From: Erwinia tracheiphila
GTDB lineage: Bacteria; Pseudomonadota; Gammaproteobacteria; Enterobacterales; Enterobacteriaceae
DNA: 64,000 nucleotides
Direction: 5' to 3'
Assembly (NCBI RefSeq): GCF_021365465.1
Contig: NZ_CP089932.1
Span: 806,001-870,000, forward strand
The position numbers and the translations under genes are program-made. Under the pieces are notes generated by a model. It was not told the DNA's origin and did not search any database. It was given only the letters and a program-made list of their open reading frames with translations. Shown piece after piece: positions 1,975 through 23,102 of this stretch. The first letter of the stretch is position 1, and every line of letters starts with the position of its first letter.

Positions 1975-2013
1975 TGAGGGTTTCGGATGTTATGAAACTC
2001 TCAGATTCTGAGT
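1975..2013 (+). repeat. Duplicated 3' end of the DUF6387-type gene
   Basis: This stretch repeats 1002-1040 with only a few mismatches and still reads RVSDVMKLSDSE-stop, against RVSDVMKLSDTD-stop in the intact gene. It is best read as the remnant of a second copy, or one end of a duplication that carried 1043-1974. The rest of 1713-2135 shows no gene. Confidence 0.7.
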
Positions 2014-2135
2014 GATATGAATCTCCAGAGACTCATAGTTTCGAACCAGGGATGGCTCTGGTGTTCGCAATCTCGCTTCATCCATTCGAAATTCATTTGT
2101 ACTGTATCCCTGTAGAAACAACAGAGGACATACAT

Positions 2136-2339
2136 ATGGAAAATCAAGCTCGTCTCATCCGTTTACCAGAAGTCATGAAGAAAACTGGATTTGGTAAAGC
2201 GTGGATCTATCGTCTTATCAGCCAAAATCGGTTCCCACAGCCAGTAAAGATCGGTGTTCGCGCTACCGCTTTTGTCGAAAGCGAAATCGATGAATGGATT
2301 CAATTAATTATCGAAAATTCAAGAAAGCATGTCGCTTAA
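2136..2339 (+). CDS. AlpA-family DNA-binding regulator
   Basis: This 67-residue protein (MENQARLIRLPEVMKKTGFG…) has the AlpA/MerR-like winged helix layout: RLPEVMKKTGFGKAWIYRLI forms the helix-turn-helix, followed by NRFPQPVKIG and a C-terminal ESEIDEWIQ. AlpA proteins of P4-like islands and prophages activate excision by inducing the integrase or acting as recombination directionality factors. Position 2136 is chosen as the start because AGAGGA lies 8-9 nt upstream; an in-frame ATG at 2052 lacks a ribosome site. No intact partner integrase of the P4 type remains here; only the dead one at 19 kb and the recombinase trio downstream. Confidence 0.85.
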   Translation: MENQARLIRLPEVMKKTGFGKAWIYRLISQNRFPQPVKIGVRATAFVESEIDEWIQLIIENSRKHVA

Positions 2340-2574
2340 CAGAAATGCTGCTTCATCGCTTTTTAACTATTGATAATGTATTAAAAAAAAGAAATTTACA
2401 GATCTTATGAGTTTACGTAGTGGGTAAAAAAAAGAGGCTTTGTAAAGTTTGCATCTGAAAAAATGAATATATTTGACGTAATTCTTTACCTTTTTTCTGG
2501 CAGAGCTTTTGCTATAAGACTTAGAGATAGTTTTCTTAATATCGGGTATGGATACTCTTTACTAGCCGTACCTG

Positions 2575-2594
2575 TTTATTTGACGTCAAATAAA
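2575..2594. repeat. Perfect 20-bp palindrome upstream of recombinase trio
   Basis: TTTATTTGAC is followed directly by its reverse complement GTCAAATAAA. The 10-mer TATTTGACGT inside it also occurs at 2470-2479, 107 bp upstream. It sits 125 bp before the first recombinase gene, in the otherwise gene-free stretch 2340-2718, so an operator or recombinase-binding site is likely; which one cannot be told. Confidence 0.6.
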
Positions 2595-2718
2595 ATTTTT
2601 CAAGCCATTAATATATATACCAAATAAACTAAAGTCATTGTAAAAAATTTGAATTATTTTGAATTGGAATATATTTAATAAGTGAGAGTGATATTAATTT
2701 GTAAAGAATGAGGTCAAA

Positions 2719-3924: not shown

Positions 3925-3925
3925 T

Positions 3926-6867: not shown

Positions 6868-7266
6868 ATGGCTAAGCATATAAATGGTTATCATGAGAAG
6901 AAGATTGTAGATGTTATTAACACATGGTCTATAGATGAAAAACTAACCTGGGATACTTTGTGCGATAGGTTAGTCAGGGTTATTGGGAAAAGACCATCAA
7001 GACAATCCTTAAGTAGTCATGTAAGGATTGCGGAAAGCTTCAATGTGAAAAAAGCCACAATCAAATCTGGTGTAATACACACTGTAAAACCTGCTAATTT
7101 AAAAGTGGCTTCTCAACGAATTAAAAGACTTGAAGCAGAAAATGAAGCTTTGAAGGCATTAAATGAACGCTATTTAGAGCAGTTCAAAGTATGGCTTTAT
7201 AATGCTCACCTTAAACAAATAACGATTGAAGAGCTTAATAATCCGTTACCTGCAAAATACCTTTAA
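6868..7266 (+). CDS. TnpC-like small coiled-coil transposition protein
   Basis: 132 residues, starting right after the TnpB-like stop with a strong AAAGGAG site. The first ~75 residues look like a small DNA-binding domain (basic, GKRPSRQSLSSHVRIAESF), followed by a heptad-rich helix (RIKRLEAENEALKALNERYL) typical of the coiled coil in TnpC of Tn554 and its relatives. TnpC is known to influence orientation and efficiency of insertion in Tn554; the same role here is inferred from gene order and architecture. Confidence 0.7.
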   Translation: MAKHINGYHEKKIVDVINTWSIDEKLTWDTLCDRLVRVIGKRPSRQSLSSHVRIAESFNVKKATIKSGVIHTVKPANLKVASQRIKRLEAENEALKALNERYLEQFKVWLYNAHLKQITIEELNNPLPAKYL

Positions 7267-7363
7267 TAAAATTGATAGGTTTTAGCTATTGACATGGTGA
7301 AATATTATGTTATTCATTTTCTTGTCAGGACGACAAAATTTCACTATTGCAAGGATGCATATT

Positions 7364-7777
7364 ATGGACAAAACAAATATCAACTTAATGGAAAGGTATC
7401 TTCTTCTGCTTGATCGATTCGTTGATAAACTCGCTGAATCAGGTTTCTCAGAGCAACGAATTATCGAACAATCATATCTTTTTTGTGCCGGGTTTTACAT
7501 TAAATACCAGCCTGAAATAGAAAAGCTAACGTTTTCAAATAGGGAAGTTGTATTGAGTTTTTTGCTTCTTTCTTATTATTGCTATATCAATAAAATTGAG
7601 AATGATATGATCGATAAAGGACGAATGAGGGACGTATGTTCATCACTGATCAATTTCATTATTAGTAATGGCAGCAGAACAGAGAAAGTCTATGTCCATG
7701 AGCGAAAAAAATATGAAGCTTGGGTGTTAAAAAGAGAGTTATCTATGAAGGATAAAAGGAAAAAGTATGGACTGTAG
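7364..7777 (+). CDS. Hypothetical protein downstream of recombinases
   Basis: About 137 residues from ATG 7364, which has AAGGA 8 nt upstream; earlier in-frame starts at 7307 and 7355 lack a comparable site. The protein is all-helical in appearance, with a hydrophobic middle (VVLSFLLLSYYCYINKI) and a very basic C-terminus (ELSMKDKRKKYGL). No family is recognised. It sits 97 nt after the recombinase operon and is followed by a good terminator at 7879, so it is probably the last gene of the transposition block or the first cargo gene. Confidence 0.55.
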   Translation: MDKTNINLMERYLLLLDRFVDKLAESGFSEQRIIEQSYLFCAGFYIKYQPEIEKLTFSNREVVLSFLLLSYYCYINKIENDMIDKGRMRDVCSSLINFIISNGSRTEKVYVHERKKYEAWVLKRELSMKDKRKKYGL

Positions 7778-7878
7778 TTTTGTATGGTTATCATGAAGCC
7801 AAGCTTAGCTAACTTATCGTTTGAATTTTATTATTACCATTAGTGCATTATCATTCTGCTAATTTAATCAATACATAA

Positions 7879-7904
7879 AAAAGCACCCTCGCAGGTGCTT
7901 TTGG
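7879..7904. terminator. Intrinsic terminator
   Basis: AAAAGCACC (7879-7887) pairs with GGTGCTTTT (7894-7902) around a 6-nt loop; T-rich on the right and A-rich on the left, so it can work in both directions. It ends the recombinase block. Confidence 0.8.
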
Positions 7905-7987
7905 TATTTTAAAATGATAATCTGCATCAGCCCATAGAGGCAACATCACCAACAATAAGGTTGCTGATGAAAAAGAAGGAGTGGCGT

Positions 7988-8065
7988 ATGAACAAAAAAC
8001 GCTCCCGTGCATTAAAGGTGATGTTGTTTATCCTTTTAATGGTGGTTAGCACATCTGTGTATTAA
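7988..8065 (+). CDS. 25-residue basic/hydrophobic membrane peptide
   Basis: ATG 7988 has GAAGGAG 5-8 nt upstream and opens a 25-codon frame: a basic head (MNKKRSRALK) and one hydrophobic helix (VMLFILLMVV) ending STSVY. This is the shape of small enterobacterial membrane peptides, including type I toxins of the Ibs group, though no specific family can be named. Its leader holds CATCAGC (7925-7931)/GCTGATG (7963-7969), and CAACATCACC (7941-7950) is the perfect reverse complement of GGTGATGTTG (8017-8026) within the coding region, so the start site can be folded away. A strong hairpin follows at 8077-8105. The gene ends 42 bp before an IS256-family insertion. Confidence 0.55.
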   Translation: MNKKRSRALKVMLFILLMVVSTSVY

Positions 8066-8076
8066 CCATTGGGATA

Positions 8077-8105
8077 ACAGCCAGTGGCGCAATCCACTGG
8101 TTGTT
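8077..8105 (+). terminator. Strong hairpin (likely terminator) split by an IS
   Basis: AACAGCCAGTGG pairs with CCACTGGTTGTT around CGCAAT (one G-T wobble). The downstream arm ends at the target duplication of the IS256-family element, so the T-rich tail expected of a terminator now lies 1.3 kb away or is lost. Confidence 0.5.
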
Positions 8106-8107
8106 AT

Positions 8108-9421
8108 GAGCCTGTAATTTAAATTGTGTATCTGCCTGTTTTTGATATCTTCATTTCGATAACGGAGACAGGTAATTATGGACGAAAAAAGACTCAAAGC
8201 CCTTGCGGCTGAACTGGCTAAGGGGCTGAAAACCGAAGCCGATCTCAACCAGTTTTCCCGCATGCTGACGAAGCTTACAGTTGAAACTGCGCTCAATGCT
8301 GAGCTGACTGACCACATCGGACACGAAAAGAACGCACCCAAAACAGGCTCAAATACCCGCAATGGTTATTCGTCAAAAACGTTGTTGTGCGACGATGGTG
8401 AGATTGAAATCAGTACACCACGTGATCGTGAAAGCACCTTCGAACCTCAGCTTATTAAGAAAAATCAGACACGTATTACGCAGATGGACAGTCAGATCCT
8501 GTCGTTGTATGCAAAAGGCATGACCACCCGGGAGATTGTCGCCACCTTCAAAGAAATGTACGATGCGGACGTCTCACCCACGCTGATATCGAAAGTCACT
8601 GATGCGGTGAAAGAGCAGGTATCTGAGTGGCAAAACCGTCCGCTGGATGCTCTGTATCCCATTGTTTATCTTGACTGTATTGTCGTAAAAGTTCGCCACA
8701 GTGGCACTGTAATTAACAAAGCCGTATTCCTTGCTCTGGGTATTAACACCGAAGGCCAGAAAGAATTACTGGGCATGTGGCTCGCAGAAAATGAAGGTGC
8801 GAAGTTCTGGCTCAGCGTGCTGACTGAGCTGAAGAATCGAGGTCTCCAGGATATCCTGATTGCCTGCGTGGATGGCCTTAAGGGCTTTCCGGATGCGATA
8901 AACAGCGTGTACCCGCAGACGCATATCCAGTTGTGCATTATTCACATGGTACGCAACAGCCTGAAATACGTGTCATGGAAGGACTATAAAGCCGTTACTG
9001 GCGGTCTGAAAGCGGTTTATCAGGCTCCGACAGAAGCAGCAGCGCTGATGGCCCTGGATAAGTTCGCTGATGTCTGGGACGACAAATATTCGCAAATCAG
9101 CAAAAGCTGGCGTGCACACTGGGAAAATCTCAATACGTTCTTTGGTTATCCACCAGATATACGTAAGGCTATCTACACCACGAATGCCATCGAGTCGCTG
9201 AACAGCGTTATCCGGGCAGCGATAAAGAAACGCAAAGTGTTCCCGACAGATGACTCAGTGCGCAAGGTGATATATCTGGCAATCCAGTCGGCCTCGAAAA
9301 AATGGAGTATGCCGATCCAGAACTGGCGGCTGGCAATGAGTCGCTTTATTATCGAGTTTGGTGACCGCCTGAGCGATCACCTTTAATACGGTGGCAGATA
9401 CACAGAATTATTTACAGGGTC
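8108..9421 (+). mobile_element. IS256-family insertion sequence, copy 1 (intact)
   Basis: The 1314-bp element is bounded by imperfect inverted repeats starting GAGCCTGTAA (left) and GACCCTGTAA (right, reversed). An exact 8-bp target duplication, GTTGTTAT, lies at 8100-8107 and 9422-9429. It carries one intact transposase gene. A related, non-identical copy lies at 40308-41622. Confidence 0.92.
8178..9386 (+). CDS. IS256-family (mutator-type) transposase
   Basis: 402 residues, the usual length for the family. Catalytic acidic residues fall in YLDCIVVKV and ACVDGLKGFPDAI and in the conserved TTNAIESLNSVIR block; the CIIHMVRNS motif of mutator-type transposases is present. GGAGACAGG precedes the ATG. 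The frame is unbroken, and with intact ends and target duplications this copy should be able to move. It differs from the copy at 40379 by scattered substitutions, so the two did not arise by a very recent duplication within this genome. Confidence 0.95.
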   Translation: MDEKRLKALAAELAKGLKTEADLNQFSRMLTKLTVETALNAELTDHIGHEKNAPKTGSNTRNGYSSKTLLCDDGEIEISTPRDRESTFEPQLIKKNQTRITQMDSQILSLYAKGMTTREIVATFKEMYDADVSPTLISKVTDAVKEQVSEWQNRPLDALYPIVYLDCIVVKVRHSGTVINKAVFLALGINTEGQKELLGMWLAENEGAKFWLSVLTELKNRGLQDILIACVDGLKGFPDAINSVYPQTHIQLCIIHMVRNSLKYVSWKDYKAVTGGLKAVYQAPTEAAALMALDKFADVWDDKYSQISKSWRAHWENLNTFFGYPPDIRKAIYTTNAIESLNSVIRAAIKKRKVFPTDDSVRKVIYLAIQSASKKWSMPIQNWRLAMSRFIIEFGDRLSDHL

Positions 9422-9480
9422 GTTGTTATCAATTTACTATCTATGACGTACTTTATTTTGTTTGTCAAATATAATTAAGG

Positions 9481-9771
9481 TTATTTAGATGGTGCCATTG
9501 CTTTCCATGAGTCATCGGATTTAATAAACTTTAATTCCATTGTTGATGCTCTGTCGCCTACGATTGGTAATTTTGCATCGAATTCTACCGAGCAGAGATA
9601 ACTGCCATCACTCTCTTTATCTTTACAGGCAATTTTCTTGGAAGAATTCAGTGTGCCATGCATCTCACTCATAAAGCTCTGCATGGCTTGTGAAATATCT
9701 GCATCCGATGGTTCACTATTGCAGCCTGTCAGCAACATAGAAGCTAATAATAGTAGCATGATTTTTTTCAT
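9481..9771 (-). CDS. Small lipoprotein
   Basis: 96 residues with a lipoprotein signal peptide (MKKIMLLLLASMLLTGC); the lipobox LTGC puts the acylated Cys at 17. The mature part has two further Cys (IACKDKE and YLCSVEF) that could form a disulfide. No family is recognised. Its ATG overlaps the stop of the upstream DUF4755-like gene by four bases (ATGA), so the two are co-expressed. It ends near the IS256-family element without being cut. Confidence 0.7.
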   Translation of the reverse strand: MKKIMLLLLASMLLTGCNSEPSDADISQAMQSFMSEMHGTLNSSKKIACKDKESDGSYLCSVEFDAKLPIVGDRASTMELKFIKSDDSWKAMAPSK

Positions 9772-10373
9772 TCTTGGTTTCCTTTTTTTGCATCAGCATT
9801 TACGGTTAAGTCAAAAACGGTCATCCACTGCCTCATTTGTTTTTTTAAGCTAATTAATCCCTTCTGATCTTTATAAGATCCTTCTTGAGGGAAGAATCGA
9901 ATATGCCACTCAGGGTTTCTAATGTCTTTAACCTTGATAAAGAAGCCTGTGTCATTAATGTTTTCACCAAGAATCTTATTGTTAATCAAATTGGTTGTAG
10001 GGTTAAGACCTGAAGTGAGGATTTGACCACCTGCGCTAATGTTATATTCCCAGCTTTCAACATCGGAGAAAGCGTAGGTTTTTTCGTTTAACCCATCTTT
10101 TAAATAAAGCTGTTTTTTAGCTTTATCTAAACGCATCTCCTGATTATGGAATTTGTAGATAAATACACCATCGTCATTATCATTCAGGTAGTTAAAGCTG
10201 GAACGTCTATTTTTATTTTTTAACCACGCGCCCCAGGCCGTTATCATCAACATCGCACAAACAAAAAACCACACAACCCAATACTCTGATAATGCTTTAG
10301 CACCAAATAAACACCCAACAAGAAACGGAAGAAGGATTGCTAACATTACACGCTTCATCATGAGATATCTCAT
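9768..10373 (-). CDS. DUF4755-like membrane-anchored protein
   Basis: 201 residues. Two N-terminal hydrophobic helices (VMLAILLPFLVGCLFGA and WVVWFFVCAMLMITAWGAWL) are followed by a soluble domain that resembles DUF4755 as remembered from mobile-element gene sets: an N-terminal beta-rich part (VFIYKFHNQEMRL…KKQLYLKDG) and a C-terminal part containing GFFIKVKDIRNPEWHIRFF. AGGA lies 8 nt before the ATG at 10373. It is coupled to the lipoprotein gene downstream, and the pair lies between the mobilization genes and the IS. The role is unknown; a function in the mobilizable element's cell-surface interaction is only a guess. Confidence 0.6.
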   Translation of the reverse strand: MRYLMMKRVMLAILLPFLVGCLFGAKALSEYWVVWFFVCAMLMITAWGAWLKNKNRRSSFNYLNDNDDGVFIYKFHNQEMRLDKAKKQLYLKDGLNEKTYAFSDVESWEYNISAGGQILTSGLNPTTNLINNKILGENINDTGFFIKVKDIRNPEWHIRFFPQEGSYKDQKGLISLKKQMRQWMTVFDLTVNADAKKGNQE

Positions 10374-10495
10374 ACTTCAGTTCCTGTATGTTCGATATGT
10401 GTTTATAAAAATAGGCTAGTAAAATCAACCTATTATCTATTTATGCTTGAAAGTACATTTTGAACACTTCTAAGGACATAGCAAATTGCTTGTAC

Positions 10496-10551
10496 CGATC
10501 GATTATTTATCAATTGATTGGTTGTGGCTATCAATATAAATAAATCGATCG
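10496..10551. repeat. Long imperfect inverted repeat near mobilization genes
   Basis: A left arm of 23 nt starting CGATCGATT (10496-10518) pairs with a right arm of 22 nt ending AAATCGATCG (10530-10551), with only small bulges, around an 11-nt loop TGGTTGTGGCT. A third CGATCG-like site follows at 10559-10564. It lies 30 bp past the relaxase stop codon. An oriT or a transcription stop are both possible; a clean U-tract is absent. Confidence 0.45.
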
Positions 10552-10580
10552 ATTATAACGATCGTTGATTTGTTTAGAAA

Positions 10581-11768
10581 TCATGGGAATAGGGGGTTAT
10601 GGGCTTTATGGTGGGAGCTTTTTGGTTCCAAACTATCCGTTTTAGCTTGTTTCAAGCTTTTCAAGGACAGGTGAATCGTGGACATGGAAAAAAATTTCCT
10701 TGGACCATTGAACGCCTTCAGAAATGGGATACGCATCGTTTTAAGTGCGCTAACAACACTCACCAGATAAGGTATGGTTGCGATCCAACGCATTGTCATG
10801 CTTGTGGGCTTTGTGGGGGCTGTGTCAGGTCTTGGCAAGGGAACCCTTATCTCAGGGGAGACCTTATCATCAGGATAGTCTTCAACTATAGATATGGCAG
10901 CTTCGTTACTTCGAGAAGTATCAGGTACAGGGATGACAGGTCTTTCCTCTCCAATGTGTGAGCTGGAATTCATCGATATCATTGGTTCCAAGTTCTTCCA
11001 ACTGTACTTCTTGCCAAGCTGGGAAGCTTTGAACACAACACCTTTGCATTCAAAGGAAAATCCATTCATCTTGCCAGTGGACGCTACGTTGCATTTCGCC
11101 GTAATGCCCATGCTATTCAGCTTTTCAACGAAGTCATCAATTGCTATAGGATTTAGTGTTATCGAATCTATAGCCCTCTGGATGATAGATTTAGGGCATG
11201 GTTCACCAGTTCTTTCCTCTAGCATAGCCTCATTACGTGATTTTTTACGTTTCGGTTTAGAGGAAAGAGAAGATGTAGATGCTTTAGCTCCTGGCCCTTT
11301 GGTTCTTGTCAGATTGTAATCTCTTTCAAGTTGCTGAATTATTCTCGTGCTTGCCAGGTTCTCATTCCTGCCGAGGTAGAGCTTTCCGGCATCAAGAGAC
11401 ACTCTGCTGGCGATGATATGGATGTGCTGGCCATCTTCGTCGTCATGTAGGACGTAGCATCTGAGATGCGTTTCAGAGAAGCCCATGCGGGACATGTAAT
11501 CATCTGCTATTTCAGCCCACTGTTTAGCCGTTAGTGATTCACCTTTAGGTAAGCGAAGCGAGTTGTGCCAAACAGCCTTTTGCACGTCAGGGCGAAGCTG
11601 TTTGGTGCTATCAAATTCAGCGATCAGATCTTTAGCGGCATTGCCAACTATCGTTATATTTCCACCGATCACGATAGGGTCTTTTTTATGATGAGAACCG
11701 GGCCTTAACGCATAGAGGACGACACCAGCAAAAATCTTTCCTCTGCGGATTTTTTGCATCCCTTTCAT
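10581..11768 (-). CDS. Relaxase / mobilization nuclease
   Basis: 395 residues. The N-terminal domain shows the relaxase fold markers: VWHNSLRLPKGESL and the metal-binding histidines in GQHIHIIASRV, as in MOBP-type relaxases that nick at oriT and lead plasmid transfer. A basic Ser/Lys-rich linker (about 175-205) separates it from a C-terminal region with no recognised domain and an odd basic/hydrophobic tail. Its ATG uses the last base of the MobC-like gene's TAA stop (TAATG), so the two are coupled. The catalytic Tyr cannot be assigned with confidence. It belongs to a mobilizable plasmid or element now fixed in the chromosome; no type IV secretion genes are present. Confidence 0.85.
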   Translation of the reverse strand: MKGMQKIRRGKIFAGVVLYALRPGSHHKKDPIVIGGNITIVGNAAKDLIAEFDSTKQLRPDVQKAVWHNSLRLPKGESLTAKQWAEIADDYMSRMGFSETHLRCYVLHDDEDGQHIHIIASRVSLDAGKLYLGRNENLASTRIIQQLERDYNLTRTKGPGAKASTSSLSSKPKRKKSRNEAMLEERTGEPCPKSIIQRAIDSITLNPIAIDDFVEKLNSMGITAKCNVASTGKMNGFSFECKGVVFKASQLGKKYSWKNLEPMISMNSSSHIGEERPVIPVPDTSRSNEAAISIVEDYPDDKVSPEIRVPLPRPDTAPTKPTSMTMRWIATIPYLVSVVSALKTMRIPFLKAFNGPRKFFSMSTIHLSLKSLKQAKTDSLEPKSSHHKAHNPLFP

Positions 11769-12181
11769 TATTTATCACTGACAGATCGATTTGCTGACAG
11801 AAGGGCATCTCTTAGTGCTTTTATTCTTTTTTGTACCGTATAAATTTCGGTGATAGTAAAAGGACTATTGTGTGATTTAGTATTGAGATGCTGAACGAGG
11901 TTGTTCAGATTCTGAGACGCTTTGGCAAGGTCTTTCCAGACAATTAGATTTATTTCAGGAATTTTGGGAGGGAGACGATTCAATGCTGACATACGTATCC
12001 AAACAGCACGGTTGAGATCTTCTCGTAAGCCATCAACGTAAGATAACTCGGCATCATTTAATCTGATACTAATACAATGAGAACGTGTCTGCTGGGATAG
12101 TGTTTTAGCAGAAGTAAAATTTTCATAGCTACAACTTCTGAATGGCTCGAACTTATTAAAAGTATGATTCCTATCATTCAT
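11768..12181 (-). CDS. MobC-like mobilization accessory protein
   Basis: About 137 residues from the ATG at 12181, which has AAGGAG 5 nt upstream; a longer frame to 12298 has no better site. The middle part SHCISIRLNDAELSYVDGLR looks like the ribbon-helix-helix DNA-binding segment of MobC/MbeC proteins, followed by the helical region with DLAKASQNLNNLVQHLN, a characteristic MobC motif. MobC proteins bind oriT and help the relaxase melt it. It stands upstream of and overlaps the relaxase gene by one base, and a perfect inverted repeat lies just before its start. Confidence 0.75.
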   Translation of the reverse strand: MNDRNHTFNKFEPFRSCSYENFTSAKTLSQQTRSHCISIRLNDAELSYVDGLREDLNRAVWIRMSALNRLPPKIPEINLIVWKDLAKASQNLNNLVQHLNTKSHNSPFTITEIYTVQKRIKALRDALLSANRSVSDK

Positions 12182-12205
12182 ATGAACTCCTTTCATATAG
12201 TAAAG

Positions 12206-12236
12206 TAAAATAAGCATGTCCATTATGCTTATTTTA
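12206..12236 (-). promoter_or_regulatory. Perfect inverted repeat upstream of mobC-like gene
   Basis: TAAAATAAGCAT (12206-12217) and ATGCTTATTTTA (12225-12236) are exact 12-bp arms around GTCCATT, 25-55 bp before the mobC-like start codon. Ribbon-helix-helix mobilization proteins commonly bind such repeats at oriT or at their own promoter, so this is a candidate for either. The rest of the gap up to 12446 has only a loose AAGGGC/GCCCTT pair. Confidence 0.5.
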
Positions 12237-12446
12237 TTTATATGATAGATGCTGAAAAAGTCAATGTATAGGGTTGGTTTTGCTTTTAATTTTTTCAACC
12301 AAAGGGCGAAAAAACAAGGAGCAACTCAAAGTATCACCGAAGGAGATGCTGAGAGTTAGCCCTTGCTGAAGTTGTTTAAAATAAAAAATTAGTTTTATAT
12401 AAATATTGCTATTCGTAATTGGAGATGGTTAACAGATTTTGATACA

Positions 12447-13190
12447 CTACAGAAGGTTTGGAATTAGGATATTGGATATTCCTGAGCCATTGCCAGACCA
12501 GTGTTGACTTATACCTTCATAATAAGGTTTCCACCATGCTTTTTGTGCTCTTTTAACTACATCAATGTATTCAGAATCACATAATGCTTGTTGCCAAATA
12601 GAACCAAAGAAATTTGAAATAATAAAGTCAATGGCTAATATCACATCCATAGGAGGTAAAGGTAGTCTTGGAGCATCAAGAATCATTAATTCTCCATAGT
12701 CATTTAAATTATCAGTCAGCCTGTTTCCTCCATTTTGTAAATGGAATTGAGGATGAGTAAATGAATTTACGCCATCCCCCATTTGAGGAACATGATAATC
12801 AAAATGCCAAGCACTATGTGATGTTTTTATCTCAATTTTTTCTGTTGTGTCATTGATCCACTCAGCTTTAAGTCGTAATTGCCCTGAAAGTTCTTTAATC
12901 TTCGAAAATTCATAAGGACCTTCACTTTTTAATATAAATTCCAAATGTATTTCAATAGGGTTTTCTTTAGGTGTAATTTGGGTCGGACAAATTGTTCCAG
13001 ATTTTTCGCTAAGATAAAATACTAAATCGTCTAAAGAGTATTCAAAGTCCTCCCCTGTTTCGGAGTGGAGATTTGCATTAAGTTTACTGATTAAACGGTT
13101 GAGAGGATTAATATCTGGGCATATGCGGCTATCATATAAAAAGTCCCTGAGCCTACACATATCGTCTAACAAAGTTGTATTATTGTTCAT
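12447..13190 (-). CDS. Unknown protein, last gene of the methyltransferase-kinase operon
   Basis: A 247-residue soluble protein with no family recognised. It begins MNNNTTLLDDMCRLRDFLYD. The central part has aromatic and His clusters (SAWHFDYHVPQMGDG; HPQFHLQNGG), then a conserved-looking DAPRLPLPPMDVILAIDF and a C-terminal WW/YY-rich segment (KAWWKPYYEGISQHW). The His/Asp clusters could be catalytic, but no known nuclease motif can be named. Its ATG touches the stop of the receiver gene, so it is the fourth gene of one translationally coupled operon. By position it may be the effector or an output partner of the receiver; that is inference. Confidence 0.6.
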   Translation of the reverse strand: MNNNTTLLDDMCRLRDFLYDSRICPDINPLNRLISKLNANLHSETGEDFEYSLDDLVFYLSEKSGTICPTQITPKENPIEIHLEFILKSEGPYEFSKIKELSGQLRLKAEWINDTTEKIEIKTSHSAWHFDYHVPQMGDGVNSFTHPQFHLQNGGNRLTDNLNDYGELMILDAPRLPLPPMDVILAIDFIISNFFGSIWQQALCDSEYIDVVKRAQKAWWKPYYEGISQHWSGNGSGISNILIPNLL

Positions 13191-14293
13191 TATAATTTAA
13201 ACCTCGCCCGAATTCGATCCAATTTTGTTCTATCTTCTGGATGTACTTTATATTTTTCGGCCCGTCTCTCTAACACTGTTTTAATTGAAAGGTATTTATC
13301 ATCTTCCCAAGGTTTTAATTCCATAGATGATGCACGAAGAGCATCTATTGTATCAAGAGGTTCTTTACTGATGATACAATTAACCCAAAACTTGGTGCTT
13401 TGGCCTGGATGTACGCTATGAATTGGCATCAATCGTTCTAAGCCAAGTTTTTCTTTGATGATCTCCACTCTTTTTTCTGAGGTTAATCCTTTAATTATTG
13501 GGCAGTTAAGCTTTTTATTTATCCACAACTCTACATCTGCCCACCACCATCTTTTATAATAATCAGAGAATATTCCATTGTATTTATATTCCTCAAGGTG
13601 CCCAATTACTTGGTGCCAGTCTGGCGATTCTTCAATATTAATACCCAGTCTGGTTGCCAAAGTTATCTCAGAAACTAACATGCCACTACTTCTCAGAAGT
13701 GTGGAGTGTATGGATGTGACGAGCTTATGTATATCTTTATCATACTGAGAAATATATATTTCAAATCTTTTATCAAGCAATGAATAATTACTGCTCAGAG
13801 AAAGCAATTGATATAACGAGTCTTCCGAATGCGCACGTTTGTAAGCATTCACAATAGATTTTATTAAGTGAACTTTTTTTTCTAACAATTCTGGTTGTTC
13901 TAATATGCTTTTACTCAAAACTAAATCAAATAGATCATGCGAGCTTGAATCGGGATTATAATATTCAATTAATAAGCTTTCGAGAGAGAGTAAAATTATT
14001 GGCTTATAAGATATATTATCTGACTTACCCGCCATGAGTGTACGTAAATTTTGTGCTAACGCGGCACCAAAGTAATCAACTGGTTCTACTCCCTCAACAA
14101 AGCTGTCAAGTTTTTGATCTATGATGATACCATCATAACCTTGTCTTAACTCTATGGCTATTTCACTCATTTTAGTCGGCGGTTTATGAGTGATTTTTAA
14201 ATCAAAACTCGCTTTACTGATTATTGCTTCAATTAAACCCTTTACTTGCTGAGGCTGATCATCATCGATATAAAGTAGGTTAATAGATGTCAT
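13190..14293 (-). CDS. Receiver-domain protein with long C-terminal domain
   Basis: About 367 residues from the ATG at 14293 (AAGGA 8 nt upstream; an earlier ATG at 14311 is possible). Residues 1-130 form a response-regulator receiver: acidic pocket Asp10-12 in LLYIDDDQ, phospho-acceptor Asp59 in GIIIDQKL, Ser103 in PIILLS and a Lys in LVLSK. The remaining ~230 residues are not a known DNA-binding output; they contain WWWADVELWINKKL and PGQSTKFWVNC and look enzymatic or protein-binding. It overlaps the kinase-like gene upstream by 14 nt. The pair therefore looks like a two-component relay built into the operon, with the output probably passing to the C-terminal domain or the 247-residue neighbour. 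Confidence 0.75.
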   Translation of the reverse strand: MTSINLLYIDDDQPQQVKGLIEAIISKASFDLKITHKPPTKMSEIAIELRQGYDGIIIDQKLDSFVEGVEPVDYFGAALAQNLRTLMAGKSDNISYKPIILLSLESLLIEYYNPDSSSHDLFDLVLSKSILEQPELLEKKVHLIKSIVNAYKRAHSEDSLYQLLSLSSNYSLLDKRFEIYISQYDKDIHKLVTSIHSTLLRSSGMLVSEITLATRLGINIEESPDWHQVIGHLEEYKYNGIFSDYYKRWWWADVELWINKKLNCPIIKGLTSEKRVEIIKEKLGLERLMPIHSVHPGQSTKFWVNCIISKEPLDTIDALRASSMELKPWEDDKYLSIKTVLERRAEKYKVHPEDRTKLDRIRARFKL

Positions 14294-16589
14294 CTGGTAT
14301 TTCCTTATCATCAGCTTTTGGAATTCTCAACTCAAAGCACGTTGTAAAACCATCGGATGCATCAACTATAGATATTTCTGCAGACATGGATTCAACGAGA
14401 TCACGTACGATTGATAACCCCAATCCCATTCCTTTTAATGATAAATCATCACTTTCAAAAGGTCCTGATGGTGTACTTGTTGTATAGAAAGGCTCAAAAA
14501 CTCTTTCTCTATTTGCAGGTTCAATTCCATCACCGCTATCTTCGAATCGGATAATTATATCTTCACTATCTTTTTTCGCTGTTAAAGACATTTTTCGTGG
14601 ATTTGTTCCAGAACGAAGTATTGCTTTATATGCATTCGTAAAGAGATTTATAAATACAGAATATAGCTCTGAAACATGAATCGGCTTCGTAAAAAGTTCA
14701 TAACCTTCATAATGTATTGCAAACTGAATTCCTTTGCGTTCTATTATTGGTTTCATCGATTCATAAAATGGCTCAATAGAGTCTCTTATCTCAATAACTT
14801 TCTTATTTCTGTTTACATTCTCACGTATAGTACTGTCAAAAAATTTAGTAAATGATTTTAATGTTGCAATGTTATTTTCAAGGCTATTTAGAGCAGAGTC
14901 TCTATCTTCCTCTAATAATTTAGACTGTTTAAGGTTTTGAACGTTAATACTCAAACTTGTTATTGATAAATTTATTTCGTGTGTAAACTCACCAATAGCA
15001 AGACCCATAGCTCCAAGCACTCTAAGAAGCTCAATTTCATCGATTAAAGATTGAGATATCACACTCGCTTGTTTTAGCTCATCTGCGGCTTCATGGAGAT
15101 CTTCAATAATTTTGTTTCTTATACTTTTATCTTCAATGTTATTAATGACACCATCACTTGAAACGTCATCAACAGATGTTGCTGCATCTACCAATTTACT
15201 AACCGAGCTTATCGTTTCAGATACAATATTTAATTTATCTTTGACTGATATTGTTGGTTTAGTTTCTTTAACATAGCTACGGTCATTTGGATTTATTTTT
15301 ATATTTCTGGCTTCACTAATTCTTATTACCGCAGCCGTCAGTGCTTTATATACAAAGAGACGAAGTTCTTGAAAGGCATCGGTATGAATCAGACCTTCCC
15401 TTGAGGACGTTTCTTCAAAGTCTATTCCATTTAGGTCTTCAACTTTGACGTGTCCAAAGAAGTTTTGATTACCATGAGGGGGTAATATCTTTCTCCTTCG
15501 AACCGAGTCATCAAGAGCCGTCCAGTCATCATACTGCTCTCCATAAGGAGAAACCTTGAATCCATTTCGATAGATTTTTATTCCGCCATTTTCACGTAAA
15601 TATACCGCTTGTTTTCTGGAGTTAACTGTTGCTAATGAGAAATAGTATGCATCAAGCTTTACTGGAGAGTTTATATGTGAGAATTTTCGTATGTTATTTT
15701 TTTCATCATACCATACATCTATGCTTTCATTTTTTATGCCAAGGGTTTCACTGCTAACTCTCACTACAGCATTTCCATTTTCAAGTGTTGCTGTAATATG
15801 AGCATCACTATCAGAAAAAATTTCAGTTTTCTCATCTGCAACTAATTCATAGCCATTGGTATTTTTATAATAGAACTTTACTTGGAAACCTGGATCTGTC
15901 TCGCTTGGGGCAATGTTTATAATGCTCTTAATATATTTATAAGCCGTTTTTATGTTCCCATCAGACCAATCTTTATCATTCAGATCTTCTATTATTATTT
16001 TTGTTCCATGAATGAAATCCACATCGATTTTTGAGATAGTGTTAGCAATGAAGGATATATTTTTCTTTTTTGAAAACTGCTGCCAGTTAATTTCTATTAA
16101 ATATCCTAACTCTTCATTTTCTTGCTTAGTAATTATTTTTAAATAATTTCCCAATCGCTGTGTAGAAAAACGCCCAATACCTTTTCTACCTGCTCTTAGT
16201 CTCTGATATCGTTCTGAAACAGAGTTATCTTCTTTTTCACTTGTGCTTATTCGCATGAATCCATTGATAATATCTTCCTTTGACATACCTGTGCCGTCAT
16301 CGAATATGACTATTCGAGGGTTTGCTTCGTTCAATTCGAAATATACATTTACTAATGTCGAATCTGCGTCATAAGCATTTTTCACCAATTCACTGACAGC
16401 AGTAGTTTTTTTAGCGACTAACTGCTCACCTAATCTTCTAACTAAATTCGCATCTACAGAAAATCTAATATTGTTGTTGTCTTTTTCGGTGATTTTTACT
16501 GCTGTTTCTAATACTTTATCATAATCGAGAGCCTCATTATCCAGGAGGGCTTTCATCTTATCCTTCAAAAAAAGAATATCTTCACTCAT
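14280..16589 (-). CDS. Protein with two GHKL ATPase domains (Hsp90/MutL-like plus histidine-kinase-like)
   Basis: 769 residues. The N-terminal GHKL ATPase of the Hsp90/MutL/MORC type has its N-box Asn71 in ELVKNAYDAD, DDGTGM at 97-102 and GRKGIGRFS at 134-142. The C-terminal half is a histidine-kinase core: H-box His537 in GEFTHEINLSI, N-box NLFTNAYKAI near 650, DSGDGIEP near 684 and GMGLGLSIV from 720. No membrane segment or signal peptide is present, so the sensor is cytoplasmic. The start overlaps the methyltransferase stop by eight bases, and the stop overlaps the receiver gene. The Hsp90-like domain could act as a nucleotide-driven clamp that senses DNA or protein and controls the kinase half; this is inference from domain content. 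Confidence 0.85.
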   Translation of the reverse strand: MSEDILFLKDKMKALLDNEALDYDKVLETAVKITEKDNNNIRFSVDANLVRRLGEQLVAKKTTAVSELVKNAYDADSTLVNVYFELNEANPRIVIFDDGTGMSKEDIINGFMRISTSEKEDNSVSERYQRLRAGRKGIGRFSTQRLGNYLKIITKQENEELGYLIEINWQQFSKKKNISFIANTISKIDVDFIHGTKIIIEDLNDKDWSDGNIKTAYKYIKSIINIAPSETDPGFQVKFYYKNTNGYELVADEKTEIFSDSDAHITATLENGNAVVRVSSETLGIKNESIDVWYDEKNNIRKFSHINSPVKLDAYYFSLATVNSRKQAVYLRENGGIKIYRNGFKVSPYGEQYDDWTALDDSVRRRKILPPHGNQNFFGHVKVEDLNGIDFEETSSREGLIHTDAFQELRLFVYKALTAAVIRISEARNIKINPNDRSYVKETKPTISVKDKLNIVSETISSVSKLVDAATSVDDVSSDGVINNIEDKSIRNKIIEDLHEAADELKQASVISQSLIDEIELLRVLGAMGLAIGEFTHEINLSITSLSINVQNLKQSKLLEEDRDSALNSLENNIATLKSFTKFFDSTIRENVNRNKKVIEIRDSIEPFYESMKPIIERKGIQFAIHYEGYELFTKPIHVSELYSVFINLFTNAYKAILRSGTNPRKMSLTAKKDSEDIIIRFEDSGDGIEPANRERVFEPFYTTSTPSGPFESDDLSLKGMGLGLSIVRDLVESMSAEISIVDASDGFTTCFELRIPKADDKEIPDDIY

Positions 16590-18267
16590 AATTTTTGACC
16601 CCTTTATATCGATCTTTTCTTAATCTGAATAACCCTTTTTTAAGACTTTTCAATTCATCTAAGCTAAATAGTCCCTTATCAACAAAAAACTTATCAACTA
16701 AAGCAGTGGCATTGCTTGTTTCATTATTTAAAAGCAATTGATCTATTTCTTTACTTAAGTTGCTTAACTCGTGTATTAAATCATCTTTAATTAAGAATGA
16801 TATGTTCTTTCCTGCGGTAGGCTCTATTTTTAGCACACCTGAGCCATATGACCGACCTTCAAGTTCGGCAGAAAGTTGTGAAAATGTTGATAAAAGAGAT
16901 ATGCAACATGCTTTTTTTAATTTATTAGATGCTATATCTTTGAAAAAGATACGATGTATTGAGTTAGTGCAGTTAACTTTCCCTTTATTTAATATCATTC
17001 TGGGAAACTCATGAACCATATATGAAAAAAATGCGTCTGGGTAAATACCATCATCTGGTTGAAACCACTTTTTTCGTTTTTTGAATGTGCGGTTTTTGGC
17101 TCGTTCTTTTCTATCAACTTGTGATAAATATTTTCTCAACGGACTATGTTTTTCATATAAATCATCTGGACTGACGTGTAATAGCAATCCTTTTTTATTG
17201 TCTGCAATTAACTTCGTATGTCTTTTTAATGTGTGGTGAATTCCCTTCAAATGTGAAAATCGTGAAATAACTGGTCTAAAATGTTTATTGTCTAAATTAT
17301 GTTTTAAAATTTGACTTTGATCCAATATAAAGAAGTTGTTCATGCCGGTTACCATACCAATCTTTATATCAGCAATATCCTGTATTTTTAAACTGTACTT
17401 ATGTTCTGTTATAGACGATATCACATTTAATGTGTCAATATCTAATATATTATATTTGTAATTTTCAGAGCTATTTAATTTGTTTTCTTTAGTTCCAGTC
17501 ATTATGCTGGTTAGTTCATTTAATGTGTCAGCAAATCCAATTGAAACGTATCCATTATTGATAGGTGTCCTGTGAAACTCATCGCATAAAAAAAGTACTG
17601 ACATTTCATCGGCACCTTCATTTTTGAAAAGCCTTTCATTTATCTTTATTATTTTTAGATGGTTAAAATGATTTTTGTAAATTCTTATAAGCTCTTTCGC
17701 ATAATAGGCATTTAAAAAACTACTTGGTAATACCCATGCTATTCGTCCATTTTCTCGAATGAAGCTTAATGCATGGAGTAAGAAAAACCCCCAAAGACTT
17801 GCATTGCGTCCTAATGTTTTTGTTTTAAAAGGTGAGTCAGCAAAAACTTTTTCACAGGACTTCCTTTGTTCATAACTCATATTATGCATAGAGATATAAG
17901 GAGGGTTCCCAATGATAACCTCAAAATCTTCAATGCCAAAATCTTTTGGAAATACGTTAATGAAATCACTTAAAATGAAATGTTTTTTTATTAATAAATG
18001 CCCATATTTTTTTTTGAGAGTATCAAAGGCTTTTTGGTCTACATCAACCCCAAATAAATTTTCCATTGGGTTTATGCAGCCTATTTCCATGAGGCTCTTT
18101 TCACAGCTTTCTAAAAAGCCACAGCCTCCAAAACTTGGCTCAAGTATTTTATCAGTTGGTCTTCTAATTGCCCAATCTGACATCACTTGACTAAGAGCAC
18201 TTGGAGTATAATATGCTCCTAACTCTTTTCTCATCTCTAAACTATGGGCATTCATAATTTTAAACAT
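16582..18267 (-). CDS. Adenine-N6 DNA methyltransferase (Eco57I/TaqI-like)
   Basis: 561 residues. Motif X-like LGAYYTPSALSQVM (about 16-29) is followed by SAM-binding motif I ILEPSFGGCGF (41-51) and catalytic motif IV NPPY (121-124), the gamma-class order typical of M.TaqI and Eco57I-type enzymes. The C-terminal ~300 residues match a target-recognition region. No nuclease motif is seen, so this is not a fused restriction-modification protein of full type IIG size. It is the first gene of the four-gene operon. Start: ATG 18267 sits very close to GGGG, and ATG 18255 is an alternative. The likely role is to mark self DNA for the system encoded downstream. Confidence 0.85.
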   Translation of the reverse strand: MFKIMNAHSLEMRKELGAYYTPSALSQVMSDWAIRRPTDKILEPSFGGCGFLESCEKSLMEIGCINPMENLFGVDVDQKAFDTLKKKYGHLLIKKHFILSDFINVFPKDFGIEDFEVIIGNPPYISMHNMSYEQRKSCEKVFADSPFKTKTLGRNASLWGFFLLHALSFIRENGRIAWVLPSSFLNAYYAKELIRIYKNHFNHLKIIKINERLFKNEGADEMSVLFLCDEFHRTPINNGYVSIGFADTLNELTSIMTGTKENKLNSSENYKYNILDIDTLNVISSITEHKYSLKIQDIADIKIGMVTGMNNFFILDQSQILKHNLDNKHFRPVISRFSHLKGIHHTLKRHTKLIADNKKGLLLHVSPDDLYEKHSPLRKYLSQVDRKERAKNRTFKKRKKWFQPDDGIYPDAFFSYMVHEFPRMILNKGKVNCTNSIHRIFFKDIASNKLKKACCISLLSTFSQLSAELEGRSYGSGVLKIEPTAGKNISFLIKDDLIHELSNLSKEIDQLLLNNETSNATALVDKFFVDKGLFSLDELKSLKKGLFRLRKDRYKGVKNYE

Positions 18268-18989
18268 ACCCCAATTTTATCATTTTCAAGTACTGCCCTT
18301 GTTCAGCCTATGTAAAGAGGCTTTAACTGTTAAACCTATTCGTTTAAGATACCTTTGCTCTACAAGCGCATTGCATAACAATTTGATTATAAAGGTTATT
18401 TTCTTGCTTTGCATTCGAAGAGCGTAGGCTACCGCAGAAGGCTATACCCCCTGTCTTCACCAAGATAGTAGTTTAACATGGAAAATGCTTCTTTTTCTAT
18501 TCGTTTGTAATATAGCTATTTAAATTTAGATTGGATTTCATCATGTTCCTTTAATATAAATAAACGATGCGTTTACATGAGTTATTTAAAAACAAAATTC
18601 TTGCTTATTTGTTTCTTTAATTAATGTATTTAACTTCTAATTCATGTGTGTTTTTTGAAAACTATATTATTATTTATATATTGCTTATAATCTTTTAAAT
18701 ATATTATATTCTTGCAGATAAGAACATCACTGATTTTGAATTCATTTAGTGAATAACTTTGCTATTTTTAATCATAGTCCCTGTTTTATACCTTGTCTTG
18801 CAAGATGAACTGGATGAAAATCAGTATGTGATCTTTTTTTCAAAGTATGATGTCATAAAAAGTTCGTTAAAGTATTTCGATATCAAAGAACTGTTGCCAA
18901 AGGACAACAATACCTATGATGGTATTAATGATGGTACTTCAATAATGATTTTGATAAAATAGCCTTAAATACAATGGGATAATTGATAT
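18268..18989. other. AT-rich intergenic stretch upstream of the operon
   Basis: About 720 bp without a convincing gene. A 67-codon frame at 18759-18962 has no recognisable product or ribosome site. The stretch must hold the leftward promoter of the methyltransferase operon, but no clear -35/-10 pair stands out. It joins the operon to the attachment-site relic at 18990. Confidence 0.5.
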
Positions 18990-19007
18990 GTTCGAGTCCG
19001 GCCTTCG
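18990..19007 (+). other. Attachment-site relic: 3' end of a tRNA-Leu
   Basis: GTTCGAGTCCGGCCTTCG is identical to the T-arm and 3' acceptor part of the enterobacterial leuX-type tRNA-Leu as remembered, a classical integration site for P4-like islands. The rest of the tRNA and its CCA end are missing. It lies directly before the relic of a P4-type integrase, the usual order at an island's left attachment site. Confidence 0.6.
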
Positions 19008-19013
19008 ACCCTT

Positions 19014-19613
19014 CTGAGAAGAAAAAAAGCAGACAAGATCGGGCAAAGCGGAGTCATGACATTCGAAGCTGTTGCAAGGGACTGGCATACTGCCTGTAAA
19101 AGGAAATGGTCAGATTCCCATAGCGAGAGAGTTCTAAAAAGCATGGAAGATGATCTCTTTACTGCGATTGGTAAAAGGAAAATATCCGAGCTTAAAACAA
19201 AATAATTTCCTGAAACCATCAAGGCTGTTGCAGCTTCTGGGCGATTAGAGGTTGCTTCCCGCCTACAGCAAAGGACAACGGCGGTAATGCGTTATGCTGT
19301 CCAGAACGGGTTGATAGATTACAACCCTGCCCAAGAAATGGCAGGGGCTATTGCGATAGCAAAGCGGGTGCATAGACCAGCCTTACCATTTGACAGGTTC
19401 TCAGAGCTTTTAGAGCGCATCGAGGGCTTCAAAGGTAGGAAACTCACTAAGTTAGCTGTGAAGCTGACATTGCTTATTTTTATCCGTTCCAGTGAACTCA
19501 GGTTTGCTCGTTGGTCAGAGATCGATTTCGAGAATGCTATGTGGACTATTCCAGCAGAACGAGAACCATTACTCGGAGTGAAACATTCACACCGTGGTTC
19601 GAAAATGCAAACT
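19014..19613 (+). pseudogene. P4-type integrase, truncated and with a stop codon
   Basis: The frame reads KKADKIGQSGVMTFEAVARD… and, after an in-frame TAA at 19203-19205, ETIKAVAASGRLEVASRLQQ and RSSELRFARWSEID, which is the core-binding domain and box I Arg of P4/phiR73-type tyrosine integrases. The first ~110 residues are missing (deletion towards the attachment site), and the C-terminal half with HxxRH and Tyr is cut off by the IS3-family element at 19614. The stop replaces what is probably a Glu codon (GAA to TAA). The gene is therefore broken three times and the island cannot excise with it. Confidence 0.85.
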
Positions 19614-19685
19614 TGTAGTGGCACACTGAATTTGTCCACCTGAGTTGAGGTGATATGCTCACCTCAAAATTTCACAGGTGAACCA

Positions 19686-20849
<1,164 letters not shown>

Positions 20850-21260: not shown

Positions 21261-23102
21261 TTAATCGTCGAGGAAACTACGCAGCACTTCAGAACGGCTT
21301 GGATGACGTAGTTTACGCAGCGCTTTTGCCTCAATCTGGCGAATACGCTCACGGGTTACATCAAACTGCTTACCAACCTCTTCCAGCGTGTGGTCAGTAT
21401 TCATATCAATACCGAAGCGCATGCGCAGCACTTTGGCTTCACGCGCGGTCAGGCCCGCCAATACATCGTGGGTGGCTGAACGCAGGCTCTCAGAAGTAGC
21501 GGAGTCCAGCGGCAGCTCCAGCGTGGTATCCTCAATAAAATCTCCCAGATGCGAATCTTCGTCATCACCAATTGGCGTCTCCATAGAGATAGGCTCTTTG
21601 GCAATTTTCAGCACTTTACGGATTTTATCTTCCGGCATTAACATCCGTTCTGCCAGCTCTTCTGGTGTTGGTTCGCGGCCCATTTCCTGCAGCATCTGGC
21701 GGGAAATACGATTGAGTTTATTGATTGTCTCAATCATATGTACCGGAATACGGATGGTACGTGCCTGGTCTGCGATAGAGCGGGTAATCGCCTGACGAAT
21801 CCACCAGGTGGCGTAAGTAGAAAACTTGTAACCACGACGATATTCAAATTTATCAACGGCTTTCATCAGACCGATATTGCCTTCCTGAATTAAATCGAGG
21901 AACTGCAAACCACGGTTGGTGTACTTTTTGGCGATAGAAATAACCAGACGCAGGTTTGCTTCAACCATTTCTTTTTTCGCCCGGCGCGCTTTCGCTTCAC
22001 CAATGGACATACGGCGGTTGATATCTTTGACTTGCTCAATGGTCAGACCCGTTTCTTCCTCGATTTGTAACAGTTTCATCAGGCTGCGCTGAACGTCTTC
22101 TGTCACATCCTTGAGTTTTTCAGACCAGGGTTTGTTCATTGCCAGCGCCGCTTTAAACCATGTTTCACTGGTCTCGTTGCCGGTAAATAAGGTGATGAAG
22201 TTTTTCTTGGGCATCTTACAAACTTCAACACAAAGCTTCATGATGATGCGTTCCTGAATACGAACGCGATCCATCATGGTACGCATATTGTTTACCAGGT
22301 AATCAAACTGTTTGGGTACCAGGCGGAACTGTTTAAAGACATCGGAAAGATTCTGGATTTCATTGACGGCGTCAGCATGGCTGCGGCCTTTGACTTTGAT
22401 TACCGCGCGGGTTTTTTCATACTGCACGCGCAAGTCGCCAAATTTCTCACGGGCCAGTTCTGGATCGATGCTGTTATCATCATCGGAACTTTCATCGTCA
22501 GAATCTTCGTCTTCATCGTCATCGTCGCGTTCTTCTTCTGACAGCTCAGAGCCAACGTGTGTGGCGGTCGGAGCCATCTCTTCTTCGGCATTCGGATCGA
22601 CAAAGCCGGTGATCATATCCGACAGGCGAGCTTCCCCTGCTTCAACACGATCGTACTGCTCAAGAAGATAGGTAATGGCTTCAGGATATTCAGCAACGGA
22701 ACACTGTACCTGATTAATCCCGTCTTCGATGCGTTTAGCGATGTCGATTTCGCCTTCTCGCGTCAACAGCTCAACGGTACCCATTTCACGCATATACATG
22801 CGCACCGGGTCAGTGGTACGTCCAATTTCCGACTCAACGCTGGATAATACTTGAGCAGCCGCTTCGGCAGCATCTTCATCCGTATCACTGGTGTTTTCGT
22901 TTAGCATCAGATCATCGGCATCAGGTGCGTCTTCCACAACCTGTATGCCCATGTCGTTGATCATCTGGATGATGTCTTCGATCTGATCGGAGTCGACGAT
23001 ATCTTCCGGCAGATGGTCATTGACCTCAGCATAGGTCAGATAGCCTTGCTCCTTACCACGGGTGACGAGCAGCTTCAGCTGTGACTGCGGGTTTTGCTCC
23101 AT
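21261..23102 (-). CDS. rpoD: RNA polymerase primary sigma factor RpoD (sigma-70)
   Basis: 613 residues, the E. coli length. Region 1.1 is at the N-terminus ([20 protein letters not shown]), region 1.2 near 95-130 ([16 protein letters not shown]), a long acidic non-conserved insert (poly Asp/Glu near 190-212), region 2 with [19 protein letters not shown] for -10 melting, and region 4.2 with [18 protein letters not shown] for -35 binding. It directs core polymerase to housekeeping promoters. It is the last gene of the macromolecular synthesis operon rpsU-dnaG-rpoD on the minus strand, 310 bp after dnaG; in E. coli this space and the dnaG end hold an RNA-processing site and a heat-shock promoter. 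Confidence 0.98.

Follow-up and report, generated by a model that had tools for sequence, protein, structure and literature searches.

Pairs of a HEF_HK (PF19191) kinase and a Response_reg_2 (PF19192) receiver have been described beside restriction-modification (R-M) genes, and C5 methylases feature strongly among them (Bellieny-Rabelo et al., 2021; PMC8011034). The pertinent sections of that account contain no experiment on function, and this kind of element, the closest to the one reported here, is known by sequence only. Other described systems resemble it in single parts. MORC and paraMORC ATPases are GHKL ATPases of the MutL kind that occur in DNA-methylase operons (Iyer et al., 2008; PMC2292703). 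The SspABCD-SspE and SspABCD-SspFGH systems, as set out in the relevant part of their source, join the modification module SspB-SspC-SspD to an exchangeable restriction partner (PMC8092258). Here we analyze a 64,000-nucleotide stretch of the Erwinia tracheiphila genome (contig NZ_CP089932.1, positions 806,001 to 870,000; hereafter the window), which carries a cassette of four genes for a DNA methylase, a histidine kinase (HK), a receiver protein (RR) and a third constant protein that we call UN. Among the relatives of this cassette, HK-RR-UN is constant and its sequence motifs are intact, while the DNA-marking genes beside it are exchanged, even for phosphorothioation genes. The constant third gene, the separate RR family and this exchange of self-marks are new. 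Such a trio, kept while its modification genes are swapped, points to a restriction module that can operate with one self-mark or another.

Genomes were scanned with a single RR peptide pattern, and 38 of the 82 stretches that matched it encode an RR relative (loci are numbered with the prefix L). These 38 loci fall into five phyla, with 27 in Bacteroidota and 8 in Pseudomonadota (alpha, beta and gamma); the remaining three are single metagenome bins of Planctomycetota, Rhodothermota and Spirochaetota. HK adjoins RR in 37 of the 38, the exception (L033) starting too near a contig end, and UN adjoins RR in 37, the exception (L039) ending inside RR; the UN of L036 is cut by a contig end. Because the scan looked for RR only and still returned each neighbor in 37 of 38 loci, the grouping of the three genes is more than chance. 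A preliminary description of this DNA had named recurrence of the four genes as a unit, in defense islands of unrelated genomes, as a test of its proposal. Recurrence is indeed found, often in mobile or defense-type surroundings, and the unit holds for HK-RR-UN, whereas the methylase is the exchangeable part.

Other collections yield the same arrangement. Viral contigs gave 37 pattern matches, of which 4 encode a relative, all 4 with methylase, HK, RR and UN (one of them, L046, is the same as L037). A tblastn search of RR against 72,556 plasmid records gave one match, a Hymenobacter plasmid with HK-RR-UN-methylase; this cassette (L005:1-11952) has a Piwi-domain protein and a type IIG-like restriction enzyme-methylase as neighbors. 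Genome samples contain the family only rarely. Counting in each case the own or center genome, RR is present in 2 of 98 relatives' genomes (one of them, L003/L057, with the complete four-gene set), in 4 of 369 genomes of the class (three of these weak) and in 3 of 395 genomes of the phylum of genome G828, and UN is present in 1 of 398 genomes of the phylum. The class search also gave a distant HK-RR-UN-methylase set (L083), and a genome with an RR match of 2.0e-4 (G066) was left out of the neighborhood reading. Among E. coli genomes, 1 of 5,426 covers at least 80% of window positions 9000-19300. In a Pfam scan of 20 of 36 proteins encoded upstream of HK, AbiEii toxin domains occur in 6 of the 20 (L006, L007, L029, L042 and others) and AbiEi in a few.

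A DNA-modification gene adjoins the trio in 36 of the 38 loci, and these genes are of four kinds. The window-type methylase is found in 7 loci (convergent in L043), and a second Eco57I-type methylase family in 24, where it mostly spans 606-641 residues and lies directly downstream of UN; outliers are L038 (647 residues, opposite strand) and L007 (333 residues). One locus (L036) has an N6/N4 methylase, and four (L012, L020, L023 and L039) have phosphorothioation genes. SspB-SspC-SspD lie directly upstream of HK-RR-UN in L012 and in L020 of Chryseotalea sanaruensis, with PADLOC matches in L012 of 4.3e-114 for SspB, E 0 for SspC and 1.9e-93 for SspD. Contig ends cut the other two, such that L023 keeps the end of SspC and SspD, and L039 keeps SspD. 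No modification gene was seen in L033, a 4.7 kb contig without HK or a recognized methylase, or in L041, whose HK starts at a contig end. In L041 (2-4921, a Leptospiraceae bin) an open frame of 1639 residues begins at the contig end and has this HK as its C-terminal part, and the first ~1000 residues of the frame match the PADLOC model TmtA at 2.1e-90; TmtA is the Tiamat defense protein. A separate sample, 394 additional genomes from the phylum of G828, contained two RR matches, one with SspB-SspC-SspD-HK-RR-UN again (L081; 3.5e-106, 0 and 9.2e-85) and one with a distant HK-RR-UN-methylase set (L082).

A tree of the joined HK, RR and UN sequences indicates how this exchange came about. The tree has 44 rows and was built by a quick method with SH-aLRT support only; L033 and L039 are absent from it, L003 is counted as an unknown label though a methylase was later found there, and L043 and L041 form long branches. 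The four known modification labels need three changes on this tree, which is the minimum for four labels. The Ssp rows form one clade (support 100), placed inside the second-methylase part only at supports of 92 and 94, and the N6/N4 case is nested inside the same part at supports of 99-100. These placements indicate that the marking part changed at least once (strongly supported), and probably three times, without HK-RR-UN coming apart. The preliminary description had proposed that methylation marks self DNA and that the ATPase/receiver pair senses foreign DNA or invaders and triggers the last protein; the swapping of modification partners is what a division between self-mark and restriction module predicts. 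The profile of the second methylase family was built after removal of the 628-residue protein of L010 and the two upstream proteins of L036. In 253 pairs from 23 loci of this family, the partial correlation given HK is 0.03 between UN and methylase identity, 0.32 between the RR output domain and UN, and 0.16 between the receiver and UN; we claim no significance for these values because the pairs are not independent.

In the window, the open reading frames (ORFs) of methylase, HK, RR and UN lie head to tail and co-directionally on the minus strand from 18267 to 12447. The methylase (561 residues) occupies 18267-16582, HK (769 residues) 16589-14280 and UN (247 residues) 13190-12447. RR, a receiver domain followed by a C-terminal domain, occupies either 14293-13190 (367 residues, second ATG) or 14311-13190 (373 residues, first ATG). 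The second ATG is the better start because AAGGAA lies just upstream of it and the five closest RR homologues have 367 or 368 residues. With this start the gene overlaps are 8, 14 and 1 bases, in agreement with the operon as it was first described; the 14-base overlap and the residue name Asp59 both presuppose the second ATG. The methylase has the Pfam domains N6_Mtase (6.4e-16), Eco57I (1.9e-14) and M_Eco57I_C (5.4e-19) and matches the PADLOC model MTase_II at 5e-90. It is an N6 DNA methylase of the M.Eco57I type and the presumed self-marking enzyme. Its likeness to PglX is weak (4.4e-6, PADLOC) and is the sole BREX-type match among the four proteins. In PADLOC, none of the four matches SspB, SspC or SspD, and none has a Detocs-named match in the library of 2023, which may not include Detocs.

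The HK comprises an N-terminal MutL/MORC-like ATPase module, a linker and a histidine-kinase core. HATPase_c_3 covers residues 63-187 (16029..16403, minus strand; E 2.7e-27), and HATPase_c, the kinase ATP site, covers residues 641-759 (14313..14669, minus strand; E 1.3e-25). In an alignment of 37 of the 46 HK ORFs found, 19 of the 20 motif positions checked are identical in every member, the twentieth, position 702, being F in 34 and Y in 3. The invariant positions span both ATP sites (E67, N71, D97, G99, G101, K136, G137 and G139 in the first; N648, N652, D684, G686, G688, G720, G722 and G724 in the second) as well as Glu538 and His537, the predicted phosphorylated histidine (codon 14979..14981, minus strand). 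Compared by sequence with proteins of known structure, the profile of the 37 homologues matches histidine-kinase cores on 525-761 and MutL (9n2k) on 55-119, and the window HK alone matches MutL on 56-127. The model of the BbrUII/HgiDII restriction enzymes, in its GHKL part, reaches 96 bits on residues 42-206, against a cut-off of 550, and the N-terminal module also matches a type II restriction enzyme model of PADLOC at 2.5e-15, below its cut-off. Taken together, HK looks like a MORC/MutL-type ATPase joined to a functional histidine kinase.

The partner of this kinase has the matching site. The predicted phospho-acceptor of RR is Asp59 (D65 in the 373-residue form; codon 14117..14119, minus strand), which is invariant in all 55 RRs of an alignment from which some loci and near copies were left out. 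Both His537 and Asp59 had been singled out before any homologues were aligned, and both prove fully conserved. The features of a two-component system are therefore present, namely a kinase core with phospho-histidine and ATP motifs and a receiver fold with its aspartate site. The C-terminal domain of RR is helical, and in Pfam the window RR matches nothing at E 1 or better.

How does this cassette compare with the HEF_HK/Response_reg_2 elements? The claim that no known system has its composition overlooks these elements, which stand beside R-M genes and, in the part of their description that bears on it, have the same kinase architecture (PMC8011034). Shared by both are a soluble kinase that begins with HATPase_c_3 in its N-terminal part and carries HATPase_c in its C-terminal part, as in the window HK and 37 of 37 members, an adjacent receiver gene and an R-M neighborhood. 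In the window HK, the HEF_HK domain scores 19.8 bits, under the curated cut-off of 24.1, and with an E limit of 0.01 it is listed in 3 of 37 HK members, the best E being 0.0011. With a limit of E 0.1, Response_reg_2 is found in none of the 55 RR members, and the whole genome of the window has no PF19192 match. Four loci that do carry Response_reg_2 (L056 and L085-L087) encode an HK of 948-1003 residues, an RR of 555-617 residues and, by eye, a C5-methylase-like gene. The HK profile of our family matches their kinases at 99-195 bits, and BLASTP aligns the window HK with one of them in three colinear stretches of 24-28% identity. The RR and UN profiles match none of the ORFs listed in these loci (at E 1 for L085-L087 and 1e-4 for L056). 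Thus an RR of ~600 residues with PF19192, C5 methylases and no UN in the four loci stand against an RR of ~370 residues without PF19192, a constant UN, and N6 methylases or SspB-SspC-SspD but no C5 methylase. From these comparisons, the two look like sister designs with a related sensor and a different output. The cassette of the C5-methylase/HK/Response_reg_2 type in a genome of the window's genus (L056:4063-9955), its receiver gene in two frames, lies near an smpB-like gene (by eye), and the HK-RR-UN cassette of L057 likewise lies near an smpB-like gene.

The other described systems differ more widely. Like MORC and paraMORC, the window ATPase is a GHKL ATPase of the MutL kind and stands in a DNA-methylase operon, but it forms one protein with a histidine-kinase core and has a receiver as its partner; the passages of that paper on these ATPases do not mention a receiver (PMC2292703). 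Type II R-M systems of the BbrUII/HgiDII kind have the M.Eco57I-type methylase family and the GHKL part in common with the window, which has instead a kinase core and receiver, and no restriction nuclease was recognized in HK, RR or UN. The likeness to Ssp systems is held by relatives (L012, L020 and L081, with SspB-SspC-SspD directly upstream), the window having a methylase instead, and HK-RR-UN is, by its annotation, unrelated to SspE or SspFGH. No paper that pairs such kinases with SspBCD was found in the open-licence PMC literature, subscription papers and preprints lying outside it. A 2024 review of phosphorothioation machinery (PMC10853773) nowhere mentions histidine kinase, receiver, GHKL, MORC, HATPase or two-component, and the relevant part of a 2026 BREX paper (PMC12839542) mentions a histidine kinase once, fused to Schlafen RNases.

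The UN protein carries a conserved cluster of histidine and aspartate residues. Across 43 UN proteins (some loci and near copies left out), the HxDxH motif of residues 129-133 (12792..12806, minus strand) has H129 in 42, D131 in 43 and H133 in 34, and the HPxxH motif of residues 146-150 (12741..12755, minus strand) has H146 in 42 and P147 and H150 in 43. Invariant in all 43 are D131, P147, H150, G154, G155, P174 and R175. H129, D131, P147, H150 and R175 are still invariant in a 17-row alignment that includes more distant relatives, several of which bear names of marine or salt-loving Pseudomonadota. An AlphaFold2 model of UN has a mean pLDDT of 85.4, and no convincing PDB match for the predicted fold was found. 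The window UN has a sub-threshold match to DUF2290 (PF10053; E 0.15, 11.9 bits against a curated cut-off of 25), the UN profile matches nine DUF2290 proteins with a probability of 67% (E 5e-5 over 47 columns), and a wider UN alignment reaches a probability of only 50% against the DUF2290 profile. UN and DUF2290 have in common a signature of the type RxD/HxD ... HPxxHxxxG ... PR/R ... NF/F, and UN may be distantly related to DUF2290 without belonging to it. A helicase and a DUF2290 protein form an anti-T7 system whose mode of action is given as not known in the pertinent section of its description (Rousset et al., 2022; PMC9122126); there the partner is a helicase, and UN shares the signature but falls below the DUF2290 cut-off. 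In all seven plasmid regions opened (L066-L072; 16 records matched), the DUF2290 gene directly follows a gene annotated as an ATP-binding protein.

Some cassettes are mosaic. L027 and L028 are near-identical in their HK parts (87-92%), RR parts (82-85%) and methylase (82%) but have UN proteins only 51% alike, and the HK parts of L008 and L024 are 81-89% alike while their receivers are 49% and their UN proteins 48% alike. In these four, HK and methylase are near-alike and RR or UN strongly different, as if RR and UN had been swapped by recombination. Because it is constant and compact, carries the conserved cluster and is exchanged between near-identical cassettes, UN is the best candidate for an effector.

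We propose an R-M-like defense cassette whose restriction step is controlled by a His-Asp phosphorelay, a proposal on which we are evenly divided. The methylase would mark the cell's own DNA, and HK would inspect DNA through its MutL/MORC-like ATPase module and respond to DNA without the mark. This response would drive autophosphorylation of His537, the phosphoryl group would move to Asp59 of RR, and phospho-RR would license an effector, most likely UN, to stop the invader by attacking DNA or by other means. The restriction module would then be HK-RR-UN, and the marking module would be exchangeable. The parts of this proposal differ in strength. Phosphotransfer from HK to RR is likely, and a defense role nearly as likely. 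Whether the N-terminal ATPase senses unmarked DNA is evenly poised, and UN as the effector falls just short of that.

MutL-type ATPases change shape on DNA, as is established for MutL. A similar change has been suggested, in the part of the source concerned, for MORC and paraMORC in R-M operons (PMC2292703). In a module fused to a kinase core, such a change could become phosphorylation of RR. If true, then what would be sensed? Because the same trio serves different methylases as well as SspB-SspC-SspD, the likely signal is missing protection reported by partner machinery, and not a single chemical group. The authors of one survey state that 2,211 of 2,678 sspBCD examples had neither sspFGH nor sspE adjacent, and they raise the possibility of further restriction counterparts in the same section (PMC8092258). 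HK-RR-UN is a concrete candidate partner for some of these and makes the point testable. A more specific and more tentative version, which we would sooner doubt than accept, is that a MutL/MORC-like clamp reads the mark, the receiver unleashes an unrecognized nuclease family (UN), and the module, which would work with N6-methyl bases made by several enzyme families and with a phosphorothioate backbone alike, senses the lack of protection via partner modification proteins and not via any one chemical group; it would be among the missing restriction partners of sspBCD without sspE or sspFGH. In restriction, the enzyme that recognizes a site normally also acts on it directly. A phosphorelay inserted between these two steps would, if true, be a new control principle, and one module that serves both methylation and phosphorothioation would show self-marks to be interchangeable.

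Several observations weigh against this proposal. Domain, model and fold comparisons of the four proteins turned up nothing recognizable as a nuclease, whether by motif or by fold, and the C-terminal domain of RR could be a transcription regulator. The link between UN and DUF2290 is weak by each of the measures given above, and none of the 43 UN members matches DUF2290 at E 0.1 or better. One locus with a weak RR match (L084 in genome G455, 7.4e-4) has neither UN nor a methylase. The scan pattern samples one conserved RR stretch, so RR families without it were missed. Finally, no experiments on the HK-RR-UN family were found in the open-licence literature.

The first alternative is a regulatory two-component system, in which HK senses an intracellular cue, RR uses its C-terminal domain to control the expression or activity of the modification genes (epigenetic control) and UN is an accessory, with nothing being restricted. 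Most receiver proteins act on transcription, and the helical output domain of RR without a family assignment, like the lack of a recognized nuclease, would suit this role. Regardless, we consider it improbable, as Pfam scans of the window proteins and family members gave no DNA-binding family match for RR or UN, the trio stays constant beside modification genes of unrelated chemistry, and it occupies the cargo slot of a defense-type island (see below). It also sits next to SspB-SspC-SspD, where the source section concerned places restriction partners (PMC8092258). Equally unlikely, in our judgment, is an abortive or toxin-like defense in which the relay reports infection or DNA damage, UN poisons the cell and the methylase or phosphorothioation genes act as guard or antitoxin, instead of laying a mark to be read on invader DNA. 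The HPxxHxxxG signature shared with a component of the anti-T7 system (PMC9122126, in part) and the upstream AbiEii domains would fit such a toxin, but the modification partners of 36 of 38 loci suit self/non-self marking at least as well. That the cassette is simply one more HEF_HK/Response_reg_2 element is very improbable, since the shared kinase architecture and profile matches are offset by the subthreshold HEF_HK score, the absence of PF19192 and the four loci with longer HK and RR, a C5-methylase-like gene and no UN.

The cassette had been placed in a mobile neighborhood, and this is real. Window segments 1-1043, 1975-8107 and 9422-19007 match the leuX-tRNA island of Escherichia coli TUM11353 at 96.8, 94.5 and 97.8%, and a type I R-M system follows the cassette there. 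Sibling islands have the same recombinase and relaxase genes and different cargo on the far side of the relaxase. Ceylon31 carries a SIR2 protein there, and A42 carries two methylases (an N6 methylase and a DNA adenine methylase) together with an HNH endonuclease. Because the siblings carry such genes at this position, the cassette occupies a cargo slot for defense-type genes. Window positions 8107-9422 are an insertion with a 402-residue transposase ORF (8178-9386) that is absent from the TUM11353 island. Further along, 19005-19607 resembles a portion of the integrase gene of the island at 84% identity, and the region 19005-20849 is the remains of the island's right end. Beside this integrase-like stretch lie, by eye, an IS3-like transposase ORF (20019-20849) and an rpoD-like ORF (21261-23102).

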